A DNA stretch of 34,096 nucleotides from Dehalococcoidales bacterium. GTDB lineage: Bacteria; Chloroflexota; Dehalococcoidia; Dehalococcoidales; RBG-16-60-22. Shown here in pieces: positions 22,909-28,594 of the stretch (its first letter is position 1; each line of letters opens with the position of its first letter). Location: assembly GCA_028706655.1 (NCBI GenBank), contig JAQTVW010000007.1:1-34096 (forward strand), read 5' to 3'. The translations under genes were made by a program, and so were the position numbers. Below the pieces are notes generated by a model. The model saw only the letters and a list, made by a program, of their open reading frames with translations, made no database searches and was not told where the DNA came from.

Positions 22909-24852
22909 CTAATCGCCCGGCTGGTGACAGATAGTGCACTGTGAGTTAGTCCTGCCCACATGGTCGGAAGGGAAGGGCTCGATGCCGCCCCGCGCATGGC
23001 ACATGAGACAATCGCCGATACCCACGATAGAATGCGGTATCGATCCTGCCGGAGGCGGCAGTGACGGCGGACGGGCAACGGTAGTGGGTTGATGACAGAC
23101 GGTACACAACGCGTTAGTCCGGCCCACATGATTGGCGGGATAAGGTCGCACCGAACCCGGCCCGTGGCACAGGAAGCAGTCCGCCAGCCCGGCAATGCTG
23201 TGTGGTATCACGATAGCCGCCGGAGGGGTCGCCGGGGGACGCGCCGGCAGCTGGGGCGACTTATGACAGATCGTGCATTGTGCGTTAGTCCTGCCGACGT
23301 GATCGGCGGGGTATGGCTGGCTCGATCCGGGACCATGGCAGGAAAAACAATCCTCAAGCCCGGCGATGCTGTGCGGTATCTGACCCGCTGCGGGCGGCAC
23401 TGACGGCGGTGCGGCTGTCGTTGTAGGCTTGTGGCAGACAGTACACAGAGAGTTGGACCTGCCCACATGATTTGCGGGGTATGGCTTGATGTTGCCCGGC
23501 CCGTGGCAGGAAAAACAATCTTCAAGACCGGTGATGCTGTGCGGTATCGGCACGGCTGCCGGCGGTGTTGCCGGCGGCGGTACAGCGATAGTCGATGGTT
23601 GATGGCAGGCGGTGCAAAGCGTATTTGACCTGCCGACATGGTCGGAGGGGAACGGCTTGGTGCCGTCGGCGTCGTGACAGGAAAGGCAGTCTTCAAGTCC
23701 GGCGATTGCATGGGGAATGAAACGCCCGGTAGTGATTGTTCCTTCCCGCCCGGGATTATAGTGGCACGCGTTACAATCAGCGCTGATGACATCCGCCTTG
23801 TTATTCCCGGCGCCTGCCGCCAGTGTCCCATGGCAACGGAAACAGCCCTCTGACTGGCTGTGTCCGACATTATCAAGATGAGTTTGCCAATCTACACCCA
23901 TTTCTGTAAAGACTGTCAGCAGAGCAACTTCTTTCAGTTCTTCGATTGCGTTATCGATATCCTGCCTTTGTTGGGAGTATACTGCCGGATAATTCGTCCG
24001 GTAAAAATCGGCTAAAGCTTCAACTTTGAGATTGGCGATGTCCAGGCTGGGACTGATTTCACCTAATGCCTTGAGTGCTTCACGCTTGATGTAAGGGAGA
24101 CTGCCGTCTATCCTGCCGAGGGTTATCCTTTCGTCGATAAGCTGCTCGGGCGAACTGAATACGTGAGTAGCACGGTTGTGACAATCGATGCAGTCCATCA
24201 ACCGCTTCTCTTTCTCGACCCGGGCGGCAGTAATCTCGCCGGCATACTTTGGATTGGTGTATTCCGCCAGCCCGGCAACCGGGTCTTCCACACCTACCCA
24301 GCCTATCTTGGCGTGCTTTTCGTCGAGAGGGACATACCAGACCCTGGCAGCGATGTGCCAGTGAATATCACGGGCGATTTCTTCCTGCCCGGTACCGACA
24401 CGCAGTACCATGTTAATCGCACGTTCGGTACTGGCTTCATCCACATCATAAGTGGTGTACGTACGTAAAATATCACCCGAGAATATCTCCGGGCGGTGGC
24501 ACTGTTCACAGGTATCTCTTGCCGGGCGCAAATTTTTCACCGGAGTACCGAGCGGGCGTTCGTAAGTACTGAACAACGTCGCGAAGACCTGGGGCAACCC
24601 CCTGATTTTCGCTTTTACCAAATAATCTGCTCCCGGTCCCACATGGCAATCAACGCAGGGTACGCGGGAGTGCGGCGAATGCTGATAGACGGTATACTCC
24701 GGATTCATCACCGTATGGCAAAGCTGCCCGCAGAAGGAGTTGGATTCGGAGAACTCGTAAAGCTGATAGCTGCCCATCACCAGCAATACCAGGCTGATGG
24801 CGCCTGTGATTGCCAGGAAGATGACCTTGTCCTGCCGTAACTTACCCCTCAT
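22909..24852 (-). CDS. NapC/NirT-like membrane-anchored multiheme cytochrome c with 16 heme motifs
   Basis: N-terminal TM then CGQLCH (CxxxCH) plus 15 CxxCH motifs: CVDCH, CEQCH, CIDCH, CFRCH, CNACH, CLSCH, CTACH, CFSCH, CTVCH, CFSCH, CTICH, CFLCH, CTVCH, CLMCH, CTICH. Confidence 0.92.
   Translation of the reverse strand: MRGKLRQDKVIFLAITGAISLVLLVMGSYQLYEFSESNSFCGQLCHTVMNPEYTVYQHSPHSRVPCVDCHVGPGADYLVKAKIRGLPQVFATLFSTYERPLGTPVKNLRPARDTCEQCHRPEIFSGDILRTYTTYDVDEASTERAINMVLRVGTGQEEIARDIHWHIAARVWYVPLDEKHAKIGWVGVEDPVAGLAEYTNPKYAGEITAARVEKEKRLMDCIDCHNRATHVFSSPEQLIDERITLGRIDGSLPYIKREALKALGEISPSLDIANLKVEALADFYRTNYPAVYSQQRQDIDNAIEELKEVALLTVFTEMGVDWQTHLDNVGHSQSEGCFRCHGTLAAGAGNNKADVISADCNACHYNPGREGTITTGRFIPHAIAGLEDCLSCHDADGTKPFPSDHVGRSNTLCTACHQPSTIAVPPPATPPAAVPIPHSITGLEDCFSCHGPGNIKPYPANHVGRSNSLCTVCHKPTTTAAPPSVPPAAGQIPHSIAGLEDCFSCHGPGSSQPYPADHVGRTNAQCTICHKSPQLPARPPATPPAAIVIPHSIAGLADCFLCHGPGSVRPYPANHVGRTNALCTVCHQPTTVARPPSLPPPAGSIPHSIVGIGDCLMCHARGGIEPFPSDHVGRTNSQCTICHQPGD
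22912..23718 (-). repeat. Five tandem diheme repeats (56-58 aa each) within the cytochrome gene
   Basis: Repeated IPHSI.GLEDCFSCHGPG..KPYPANHVGR(S/T)N..CT.CHKP followed by a Pro-rich linker; 168 nt spacing measured between two units. Confidence 0.9.
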
Positions 24853-25159
24853 CTTTTTCCTTCGACCTTACGATAATAATAATGAAGTTGATTGCGCCGA
24901 GGATAAAAAGGACAGGCACCATAAAATAGGTAAACACCCCAATAATTGGTCTCTGCCGGGGCAGGCCAGACACCATGTTGAATACGAAAAATATAAGCAT
25001 AAACGCCAGGAGAATGCCTGACGCCTTCATCCACGAATCATCAAATATTTCCGCGAAACGTTTCAAAACTGCTCTCCAAAAGGGCAGACGCTTTCCCACT
25101 TTGTTACTTGCGATATGAGCGTTCAAAGTATTATATCCAGCACTATCTTTAATAGTCAC
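24842..25159 (-). CDS. Small membrane protein upstream of and overlapping the multiheme cytochrome gene
   Basis: 105 aa maximum, two hydrophobic helices, 11 nt overlap with the cytochrome start; the true start may be an internal GTG (about 25099). Confidence 0.65.
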   Translation of the reverse strand: MTIKDSAGYNTLNAHIASNKVGKRLPFWRAVLKRFAEIFDDSWMKASGILLAFMLIFFVFNMVSGLPRQRPIIGVFTYFMVPVLFILGAINFIIIIVRSKEKDEG

Positions 25160-25308: not shown

Positions 25309-25707
25309 TTAGAAAGGACGATATACTTGAGGAGGCAGTACCGATTGGAATACTTCACACTGCCGGCAGGTTTCCAGTTTGTTCTGCCAGCAATCACTTT
25401 GCATGCCACGGCAATTTGTACCGTTGATAAACCAGCACAAATTACCGGCGCGGAATTCCCATGCAGCGCATTCTTTACGCCATTCGCCAGGACAATCTTT
25501 GGTTTCCCAGCATGGGCTGACAATATCGCCGGAAGCGTTTTTCAAATATAAAAGGAACATAAGCTGCCGCTCGACACTAGCCGGCACCTTGCGCCATTCC
25601 TGTTCAAAGCTCTGCACCGCCTTGGGGGAGACGCACAGCAGACGGGCTATTTGATTCTGCGTTTTACCAAGTTCGTGGCGCGCCTGGCTGAATTCTCTCG
25701 CTTCCAT
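25309..25707 (-). CDS. HTH (XRE-like) DNA-binding protein with Cys-rich C-terminal domain
   Basis: MEAREFSQARHELGKTQNQIARLLCVSPKAVQSFEQEWR (HTH), then CWETKDCPGEWRKECAAWEFRAGNLCWFINGTNCRGMQSDCWQNKLETCRQCEVF; ATG at 25707 preferred over TTG 25713. Confidence 0.8.
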   Translation of the reverse strand: MEAREFSQARHELGKTQNQIARLLCVSPKAVQSFEQEWRKVPASVERQLMFLLYLKNASGDIVSPCWETKDCPGEWRKECAAWEFRAGNLCWFINGTNCRGMQSDCWQNKLETCRQCEVFQSVLPPQVYRPF

Positions 25708-25733
25708 TTTCAATAATCAATCCGAACGAAATT

Positions 25734-25750
25734 ATACCACGTTGTAGTAT
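25734..25750. promoter_or_regulatory. Near-palindromic operator candidate 1, overlapping a minus-strand TATAAT
   Basis: ATACCACGTTGTAGTAT (extended TTATACCACGTTGTAGTATAA); minus-strand TATAAT at 25737-25732 precedes the HTH gene. Confidence 0.6.
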
Positions 25751-25789
25751 AAAACGAAAGCGCGCCACGATTGGTTCCATAAAGGGGGG

Positions 25790-25818
25790 TTGCATGGTAT
25801 CCTACATTGTGGTATATA
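25790..25818 (+). promoter_or_regulatory. Candidate promoter TTGCAT-N17-TATATA with operator candidate 2 in the spacer
   Basis: TTGCAT 25790-25795, TATATA 25813-25818; ATCCTACATTGTGGTAT at 25799-25815 matches operator 1. Confidence 0.6.
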
Positions 25819-25873: not shown

Positions 25874-28594
25874 ATGATGCTAAAAAAATTGGTGATGCTG
25901 TCTGCAATCGCAATAGCTACACTGTTCGTAATTCTTGCCTTGAAAGCAACCCCTGTAATAGCCAGTGCCGGTCAAACCAGTTCCTGCACTTCCTGCCATA
26001 GTCAATCAAGCACCATCAACATCACTACGGATTTACCAACCCGCACAGTCTCACCGGGTCAATCTTTTCAGGTAAACATTTCCTGGTCGGGAGGGACCAG
26101 CGGGCGTCGCGAGGTAAACTGGCCAACCAATGCCGTTTCCAACACCCTTTTTAGCCCGACTCCGCGCATCCCCTATTCGAGTTCCGCCGCCAGCGGCACT
26201 ACATCTTCTACGCTGACTGCCCCGGCGACTACCGGTACTTATACCGTGAGGGTATTCATCGCAAGAGGCAGTCCGCGGGATTCGGACTATGCTGACGTCA
26301 CTGTCACCGTTGCCGCAGCGAATGCCGCGCCGGTGCTGGGAACTATCGGCAATAAATCGGTCACGTCAGGACAGCTTCTTCAATTCACCGTCTCCGCCAC
26401 AGATGCTAACGGCGGCACCTTGACCTATTCCGCCACTAGTCTGCCTGCGGGAGCAACTTTCAACGCTTCCACTCGTACCTTCTCCTGGACGCCAGCTGCG
26501 GCAGGCACTTACTCCAATATCATTTTCCAGGTCTCCGACGGCTCGCTGACCGACTCCGAGACTATTTCCATCACAGTTAACGCCGCTAATGTTGCACCAA
26601 TTCTTGCCACCATCGGCAGCAAATCGGTCACGTCAGGACAGCTTCTTCAATTCACCGTCTCCGCCACAGATGCTAACGGCAACACCTTGACCTATTCCGC
26701 CACAGGTCTGCCGGCGGGAGCAACTTTCAATGCCTCGACCCGCACTTTCTCCTGGACACCTGCCACGGCGGGTACTTACTCCAATATCGCCTTCCAGGTC
26801 TCCGATGGCTCGCTGACCGATAGCGAAACAATTTCTATTACAGTCACCGCAGCGAATGTTGCACCAATTCTTGCCACCATCGGCGGTAAATCGGTCACGG
26901 CGGGACAACTGCTCCAATTCGCCATTTCAGCAACCGATGCTAACGGCAACACTCTGACCTATTCCGCCACCGGTCTGCCGGCGGGGTCAACTTTCAACGC
27001 TTCCACTCGCACTTTCTCCTGGACGCCTGCCTCGGCGGGTACTTACTCCAATATCACTTTCCAGGTCTCCGATGGCTCGCTGACCGATACTGAGACTATT
27101 TCCATCACAGTTAACGCCGCTAATGTTGCACCAATTCTTGCCACTATCGGCAATAAATCGGTCACGTCAGGACAGCTTCTTCAATTCACCGTCTCCGCCA
27201 CAGATGCTAACGGCGGCACCTTGACCTATTCCGCCACCGGTCTGCCTGCCGGAGCGGACTTCAACCCGGCGACCCGCAATTTTACCTGGACACCCGCTGT
27301 CGGACAGCCAGGGTCTTACGCTAATATCACATTCCAGGTCTCCGACGGCGCCCGCACCGATTCCGAAAGTATTACCATTACAGTCAATGCCGTTAATGAA
27401 GCACCGGCGCTTGGCGCTATCGGCAACCGGACGGTTAACGCCGGCGAGCTTCTCCAATTTACAGTATACGCCACTGACCCAAACAATAATCCGCTGGCAT
27501 ATTATGCCGCAGGTCTACCGTTGGGAGCTACCTTCAATCCTGAGACAGGAGCATTTTCATGGATGCCCACCGCCGAACAGTACGGTGTCTATCCCAATGT
27601 AGTGTTCCATGTGTCTGACGGTTCCCTGACCGATTTGGAAAGCATTACCATCACCGTCAATGAAGTCAACGCACCCCCTGTATTGAACCCAATCGGCAGC
27701 CGGAAAGTCACTGCCGGAGAGTTGCTCCAATTCACCATCAATGCTACCGATGCGAATAGCAATCCGCTCACCGTATCGACCAAGAGCCTGCCTCCGGGTG
27801 CGAACTTCTCCTCTGCAACGAGGACATTCTCATGGATGCCCGCTCGTGAGCAGGCGGGTACTTACAATGTTGTTTTCCAGGTTACGGACGGCAAGCTCAC
27901 TGCCTCCGAGAGCGTGACCATCATCATTGAACAAGCCGATGTTGCTGCGCCTGTGCTCGGTCCCCCGGCAACTTCAGAGATTGAACCGAACAGCATCGTG
28001 ATACGCTGGACGACGGATGAACCGAGCACCAGCCAGGTCGAATACTGGGCAAGTCCCCATAAACTTTCGCCGATGGACAACAACTACGTCACGAATCACA
28101 TAGTCCGGTTGACCGACCTGGAAGCCGGAGCGACCTACCGGTATACGACCCTTTCCCGAGACATGGCGGGCAATTTGTCCGTATCTACAGAATACAATTT
28201 CGCCACTCCGGCAGCGTTTTCCGTGAGCGGACTAACGGTCACTCCCTCCGAAGCGAAAATCGGCGACACTGTGACTATCGGAGCACTCGTTACCAGCAAT
28301 ACTGCTTCGACCGCCACATATGAGTTATTGTTAAAAGTTGCCGGGGCTACCGTTGCCACAAAGACAATAGACCTTGCCCCGCGAGAACAAAAAACGGTGA
28401 CCTTTACAACCACCAGGTATGCCGCCGGTAAAGCACTGGTTGATATCCATGGAGCAGTCGGTTCTTTGCTGGTCTATCCTTCCATACCGCGAACAAACAA
28501 CTCTTTACCTGTGGGGATTTTGGCAGGAATCTTACTGCTCGGGGGAGTGTGCGGTCTTGCCGGCTGGCGGTTATTCCGGCGCTGGACGCGGTAA
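25874..28594 (+). CDS. Secreted/membrane-anchored protein: single c-type heme motif domain, six Ig-like (cadherin/He_PIG-like) repeats, FN3-like and CARDB-like domains, C-terminal TM
   Basis: Signal peptide, SSCTSCHSQSS, six x 'APILATIGxKSVTSGQLLQFTVSATDANGxTLTYSATGLPAGATFNASTRTFSWTPAxAGTYSNIxFQVSDGSLTDSETISITVNAAN', then FN3-like segment and 'LPVGILAGILLLGGVCGLAGWRLFRRWTR'. Confidence 0.88.
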   Translation: MMLKKLVMLSAIAIATLFVILALKATPVIASAGQTSSCTSCHSQSSTINITTDLPTRTVSPGQSFQVNISWSGGTSGRREVNWPTNAVSNTLFSPTPRIPYSSSAASGTTSSTLTAPATTGTYTVRVFIARGSPRDSDYADVTVTVAAANAAPVLGTIGNKSVTSGQLLQFTVSATDANGGTLTYSATSLPAGATFNASTRTFSWTPAAAGTYSNIIFQVSDGSLTDSETISITVNAANVAPILATIGSKSVTSGQLLQFTVSATDANGNTLTYSATGLPAGATFNASTRTFSWTPATAGTYSNIAFQVSDGSLTDSETISITVTAANVAPILATIGGKSVTAGQLLQFAISATDANGNTLTYSATGLPAGSTFNASTRTFSWTPASAGTYSNITFQVSDGSLTDTETISITVNAANVAPILATIGNKSVTSGQLLQFTVSATDANGGTLTYSATGLPAGADFNPATRNFTWTPAVGQPGSYANITFQVSDGARTDSESITITVNAVNEAPALGAIGNRTVNAGELLQFTVYATDPNNNPLAYYAAGLPLGATFNPETGAFSWMPTAEQYGVYPNVVFHVSDGSLTDLESITITVNEVNAPPVLNPIGSRKVTAGELLQFTINATDANSNPLTVSTKSLPPGANFSSATRTFSWMPAREQAGTYNVVFQVTDGKLTASESVTIIIEQADVAAPVLGPPATSEIEPNSIVIRWTTDEPSTSQVEYWASPHKLSPMDNNYVTNHIVRLTDLEAGATYRYTTLSRDMAGNLSVSTEYNFATPAAFSVSGLTVTPSEAKIGDTVTIGALVTSNTASTATYELLLKVAGATVATKTIDLAPREQKTVTFTTTRYAAGKALVDIHGAVGSLLVYPSIPRTNNSLPVGILAGILLLGGVCGLAGWRLFRRWTR
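26327..27960 (+). repeat. Six tandem Ig-like domain repeats (267 bp period for units 1-4, 273 bp for later units)
   Basis: 'atcggc' landmark at 26345, 26612, 26879, 27146, 27419, 27692. Confidence 0.92.

Follow-up and report, generated by a model that had tools for sequence, protein, structure and literature searches.

The DNA between a small helix-turn-helix (HTH) regulator gene and a divergently oriented surface-protein gene, in the 34,096-nucleotide stretch of a Dehalococcoidales genome analysed here (the window), carries two 17-bp near-palindromes. These are very probably the operators through which the regulator (the 25309-25707 protein) represses its own gene and the divergent one. The sites, their conservation, their phase relative to the promoters, and the gene architecture were computed. 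A reading made earlier from the window alone (the sequence-only reading) had proposed autoregulation together with control of the divergent gene; it is supported by comparative footprinting that spans several families, by the constant promoter phase, and by trans sites, the latter being counted where the genome possesses the regulator. The features are collected in Table 1.

Table 1. Features of the regulator locus in the window, and outward promoters containing the distal operator copy there and in relatives
Feature	Position or genome	Strand	Description
Regulator gene, XRE-like HTH and two-CW	25309..25707	-	ATG at 25707; 132 aa
Operator 1 (proximal, autoregulatory; predicted)	25734..25750	-	ATACCACGTTGTAGTAT, in the regulator's direction ATACTACAACGTGGTAT; core 15 bp 25735-25749; from sequence, relatives-only matrix 20.5 bits, equivalent site in relatives
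Operator 2 (distal; predicted)	25799..25815	+	ATCCTACATTGTGGTAT; core 25800-25814; in outward-promoter spacer; from sequence, matrix 18.6 bits, same geometry at G104, G314, G256, G009
-10 TATAAT of regulator promoter	25731..25736	-	extended -10 TGGTATAAT with operator bases
-35-like TTGCAT, outward promoter	25790..25795	+	3/6 match; TTGACA here in several relatives
-10-like TATATA, outward promoter	25813..25818	+	4/6 match
Divergent gene, predicted target	25874..28594	+	signal peptide, one CXXCH, six He_PIG, C-terminal TM
Small membrane protein gene, downstream of regulator	24842..25159	-	homologue precedes NapC-like gene behind third operator
NapC/NrfH-type cytochrome gene, downstream of regulator	22909..24852	-	15 CXXCH; same strand as regulator
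Outward promoter, distal copy	window		TTGCAT-17-TATATA
Outward promoter, distal copy	G104		TTGACA-17-TACACT
Outward promoter, distal copy	G314		TTGACA-17-TAGTAT
Outward promoter, distal copy	G256		TTGACA-18-TATGCT
Outward promoter, distal copy	G009		TTGACG-18-TACATT

The two copies had been reported with their centres 65 bp apart; the sequence agrees, and the match lies far above chance. Across the whole window the first consensus is found without mismatch at these two copies only, and with up to three mismatches at five places against 0.30 expected, a comparison in which the consensus was derived from the two sites themselves. A weight matrix was also built solely from the sites of relatives, the window's own being left out; when the window was scanned with it, the next place after the two copies scored 7.5 bits. 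The per-position chances of the scores of copies 1 and 2 are 9e-8 and 3e-7, i.e., one such score per 12 and 3.6 million positions, respectively, at the base composition of the window. The refined operator, drawn from 22 sites, reads TACCACA-W-TGTGGTA (consensus: TACCACAWTGTGGTA) and holds about 20 bits; a scan of the whole 1.82-Mb genome returned only these two sites with at most two mismatches to it. Read in the regulator's direction copy 1 is ATACTACAACGTGGTAT, and in this promoter orientation it is identical to copy 2 at 14 of 17 positions, against 13 of 17 otherwise, so the face presented to the respective promoter is the same for both copies.

The outer arm of the refined operator forms part of the extended -10 of the regulator promoter (TGGTATAAT). 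TGGTA, followed by four further bases of the -10, stands in the same phase in 10/10 loci with a proximal site, and in seven of the ten the -10 matches TATAAT at five or more of its six positions (P 3e-5). Copy 1 had been described as covering the TATAAT of the HTH gene; it overlaps that hexamer by three bases but does not cover it in full. Copy 2, which was said to fill the 17-bp spacer of the outward promoter, occupies 14 of those 17 bases (25796-25812) and has its remaining three in the -10. The distal copy usually lies within a 16-18 bp spacer of the outward promoter, the best cases having the form TTGACA-N17-TANNNT, and the outward -35 matches at five or more of six positions in 5/8 loci (P 5e-8). 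The weak -35 of the window's own outward promoter (3/6) counts against the operator reading. One predicted operator per divergent promoter is a recurrent layout in the HTH/two-CW family. The suggestion that 65 bp is close to six helical turns is arithmetically sound (6.19), but the spacing is not conserved (23-101 bp elsewhere). The distances between copies are 23, 24, 24, 24, 32, 51, 65, and 101 bp, with no common helical phase among loci; looping is therefore not needed, and conserved helical phasing or looping was rejected.

Conservation in orthologous intergenic regions was one property on which the sequence-only reading had staked itself, and the motif is kept there: a palindrome with at most one mismatch lies within 150 bp of the regulator gene in 9/14 upstream regions and in 0/1032 other 150-bp stretches from the same contigs. 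Because the window's sites defined the search pattern, the independent part of this count is 8/13 other regions. The palindrome recurs in intergenic regions whose flanking genes vary between genomes but frequently serve respiration or the handling of metals. Among the 14 upstream regions no site was found at G163, G193:C7, and G193:C2, the regulator copy of the last having an internal stop, and the WVXP region possesses just one good half-site. At G193:C5 (L047) five weaker operator-like copies are found at -457 to -258 from the regulator start; they precede a divergent tatA-tatC-NrfD-FeS-molybdoenzyme operon, with none at the regulator's own promoter. Within the order, all other regulator-bearing genomes (6/6) hold strict sites, compared with 21/149 of those that lack the gene (P 1.7e-5); the six include motif-defining loci, G057 being the fully independent one. 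In the regulator-less genomes most of the strict-site matches examined fall inside ORFs.

The divergent gene encodes a MacB permease in G009 and G003 (the latter with a single operator), Rieske/cytochrome b in G013, a PEP-utilising enzyme in G105, and cytochrome c with a NarG-like enzyme in G256; with such variation among genomes, a special tie to Ig-repeat proteins is unsupported. No relative of the heme-bearing N-terminal domain of the window's divergent gene product turned up in the 30 other genomes of the family; the domain looks lineage-specific on that account, and the Ig/heme gene was rejected as the ancestral partner. Its six He_PIG Ig-like repeats resemble each other and lie between the CXXCH and the TM segment. 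The C-terminal part of the NapC/NrfH-type cytochrome on the other side of the regulator is made up of near-identical repeats of a two-heme unit, and its paralogue on contig C142 possesses the first five hemes only. FtrD-like and redoxin genes adjoin the regulator together with a MacB-type permease in G009, and FtrD-like, redoxin, and DUF411 genes are found among the neighbours of regulator/operator loci.

The regulator consists of an HTH (residues 1-58) and a two-CW domain (residues 65-123), a layout common to all 12 full-length sequences (the window protein and 11 relatives, 48-60% identity). Its Pfam scores for HTH_3 (18.0; cut-off 23) and HTH_31 (18.9; cut-off 27) fall below both cut-offs, for which reason it is termed XRE-like and not filed as a Pfam member; 11/12 members have a Pfam HTH match at E<=0.01, the best being 6e-6. 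AlphaFold places helices at residues 3-13, 17-24, 28-35, and 43-58, with residues 1-50 predicted well (pLDDT about 84-94). Foldseek assigns the HTH to the lambda-repressor-like fold, with probability 1.0 to SO3848, HigA2, C.Kpn2I, and Aca2 (rmsd about 1 A, 51-59 columns, E 0.1-0.5), and sequence-profile matches in the PDB are to 28tn, Aca2, and CylR2. The two-CW part has a pLDDT of 41-55, and the PDB search gave no match beyond the HTH. It is recognised by NCBIfam NF045718 (42.2 bits, cut-off 35; E 7.6e-11), which also matches 12/12 relatives, and seven Cys are invariant in the 12 sequences (C66-W67, C72, C80, C91-W92, C99, C114, and C117). The model of MqsA-type CxxCG_CxxCG_HTH antitoxins, TIGR03830, gives 16.3 bits against a cut-off of 61.8, the match being confined to the HTH, and no toxin gene was recognised adjoining the regulator.

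The regulator is present in 7/156 genomes of the order and in a few others of the class, and one relative is found in a public MAG labelled Proteobacteria. None was found outside the class in a 400-genome sample of the phylum, none new turned up among 245 relatives of G193, and the gene is absent from the nearest congener, the same-genus sister genome G001. Relatives with in-frame stops at L050 (G193:C2) and L051 (G315:C31) are probably degenerating copies, in keeping with a patchy history of gain and loss of the regulator. Stand-alone copies of the two-CW domain exist in G193, and the domain has further relatives in L024 and L025; the G193 protein encoded at L103:1913-2224 (-) is of this type (NF045718, E 3e-28) and has operator-like sites upstream. 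No use of the term two-CW domain was found in the literature searched, and a literature search for the operator sequence gave only an unrelated plant-codon match.

Three sets of trans sites (C142, G057, and G193) took no part in defining the motif. The only other strong site in the window's own genome, G000:C142:5138-5154 (16.7 bits), lies directly after a TTGACT-N17-TATACT promoter; at this score 1.7 sites are expected by chance genome-wide and 0.17 in intergenic DNA. The operon there encodes a small membrane protein, a 5-heme NapC-like cytochrome, and a 9-heme MtrC/F-like cytochrome, and resembles the window in the small membrane protein (40% over 67 aa) and the NapC-like cytochrome (54% identical over 362 aa), both homologous to the genes that follow the regulator. 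On the chance expectations just given, the site is suggestive of a further target of the regulator at this NapC operon. The contig of this third operator also carries FtrD-like and AhpC/TSA redoxin genes (L091:15414-16487). G057 has three intergenic sites, two of them within TTGACA-N17-TANNNT and one preceding a MacB-ATPase-FtrD-like operon with the kind of permease seen in G009 and G003. In G193 two sites precede a gene for a cohesin/TSP3/PKD secreted surface protein and one precedes a stand-alone two-CW gene. A variant site, TAACACATTGTGATA, occurs in a TTGACA-N17-TACATT promoter at L107:250-264 (G013:C35); the short ORF behind it resembles BrnT-type toxins, as judged by eye only. Weak sites in the window's genome (C107 at 14.7 bits, and others) were not accepted, 5.5 being expected by chance. 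Genome counts with a loose pattern are not clearly above chance or the reversed control; a large regulon was thus rejected in favour of a small one.

That the palindromes are chance occurrences, RNA hairpins, or terminators is scarcely credible: their AT-rich ends would fit -10 boxes anyway and their arms measure just 7 bp, but they recur in 9/14 upstream regions as opposed to 0/1032 background stretches, reach per-position probabilities of 9e-8 and 3e-7 under a matrix made without the window, and lie ahead of the starts, not within transcripts, in a constant phase to the promoter. It is very unlikely that they are owned by another regulator, with the HTH/two-CW gene merely one of its targets. 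Such ownership would accord with the 3/14 regulator genes lacking a site and the one having a half-site, and with the G193 sites ahead of the stand-alone two-CW gene and other loci. The strict sites, however, follow the presence of the regulator (6/6 versus 21/149), an operator next to the regulator's own gene, amid neighbourhoods that otherwise differ, is what autoregulation usually looks like, and an HTH of the lambda-repressor type suits a palindrome of 15-17 bp.

MerR-type activators correct promoter spacers of 19-20 bp. The regulator might similarly activate, or switch, from the same sites by bending or untwisting the spacer, an alternative that we consider unlikely. As in the MerR family, the distal copy lies between the -35 and -10, and the -35 boxes of the proximal promoters are weak. 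Unlike that family, the HTH is of a different kind, the -10 is overlapped by the operator, and the spacer is normal, not 19-20 bp, at 16-18 bp where a -35 is recognisable (16-18 bp being the range scanned). Moreover, in-spacer promoters elsewhere have a perfect TTGACA, and the C142 site, downstream of the good TTGACT-N17-TATACT promoter, is in a blocking position. Given the normal spacer and the -10 overlap, repression is expected; it is the likeliest outcome because a protein bound across an extended -10 or a spacer of normal length should keep polymerase out.

We infer binding by the 25309-25707 protein, repression, and a dimeric state. With the palindromes as its operators, the regulator dimer would bind TACCACAWTGTGGTA; at copy 1 it would cover the extended -10 of the regulator promoter and at copy 2 it would lie in the -35/-10 spacer of the outward promoter, excluding RNA polymerase from both and giving autorepression together with repression of the divergent surface protein. 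On contig C142, the NapC-type cytochrome operon would probably be a further target, and repression might be relieved when the two-CW domain responds to a metal, a redox change, or a thiol ligand. The best reading is a putative one-component autorepressor, acting also on the divergent gene and on a few envelope, electron-transfer, and metal genes, with the two-CW domain probably as its sensor.

XRE/lambda-repressor-like repressors act through short palindromic operators located at their own promoters and, in some cases, at divergent ones. The window protein shares a small HTH of the same fold with lambda cI, CylR2, C.Esp1396I, Aca2, and HigA/MqsA, but where these have an oligomerisation or toxin-binding part it carries the two-CW domain at its C-terminus; its operator differs, no toxin or methylase partner was seen, and its predicted targets are scattered among envelope, electron-transfer, and metal genes. 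With the NF045718 two-CW proteins it shares that domain, here fused to a DNA-binding HTH. Autoregulating one-component repression is a familiar mode of control; the domain combination, the operator, and the promoter design are undescribed.

A metal, redox, or thiol signal acting via the seven invariant Cys is a guess, hinted at by the FtrD-like, redoxin, and DUF411 neighbours and by the likeness of the MacB-FtrD genes to an iron cluster of Campylobacter. That P19/FTR1 cluster (1649-1656), which lies downstream of a Fur box, resembles G009 in its MacB-type permease, FtrD-like, and redoxin genes, and the operon behind the G057 trans operator in its permease, ABC ATPase, and FtrD-like genes (PMC6083913). 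No FTR1 or P19 genes were seen in the G009 and G057 stretches read, and the likeness is a hint of a metal signal by analogy.

Quite tentatively, the HTH/two-CW proteins may represent an undescribed metal/redox-sensing repressor family of a class of mostly uncultured bacteria, controlling operons for surface multiheme cytochromes, molybdoenzymes, and iron handling through one type of operator in the extended -10, with the two-CW domain as sensor. The analysis yields a predicted operator, a promoter geometry, and a small regulon for a regulator family that was not found described in the literature searched, and suggests a role for the otherwise uncharacterised two-CW domain as a sensory module on a repressor. 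It may thereby offer an entry point to the switching of multiheme cytochromes and surface proteins in these little-studied anaerobes.
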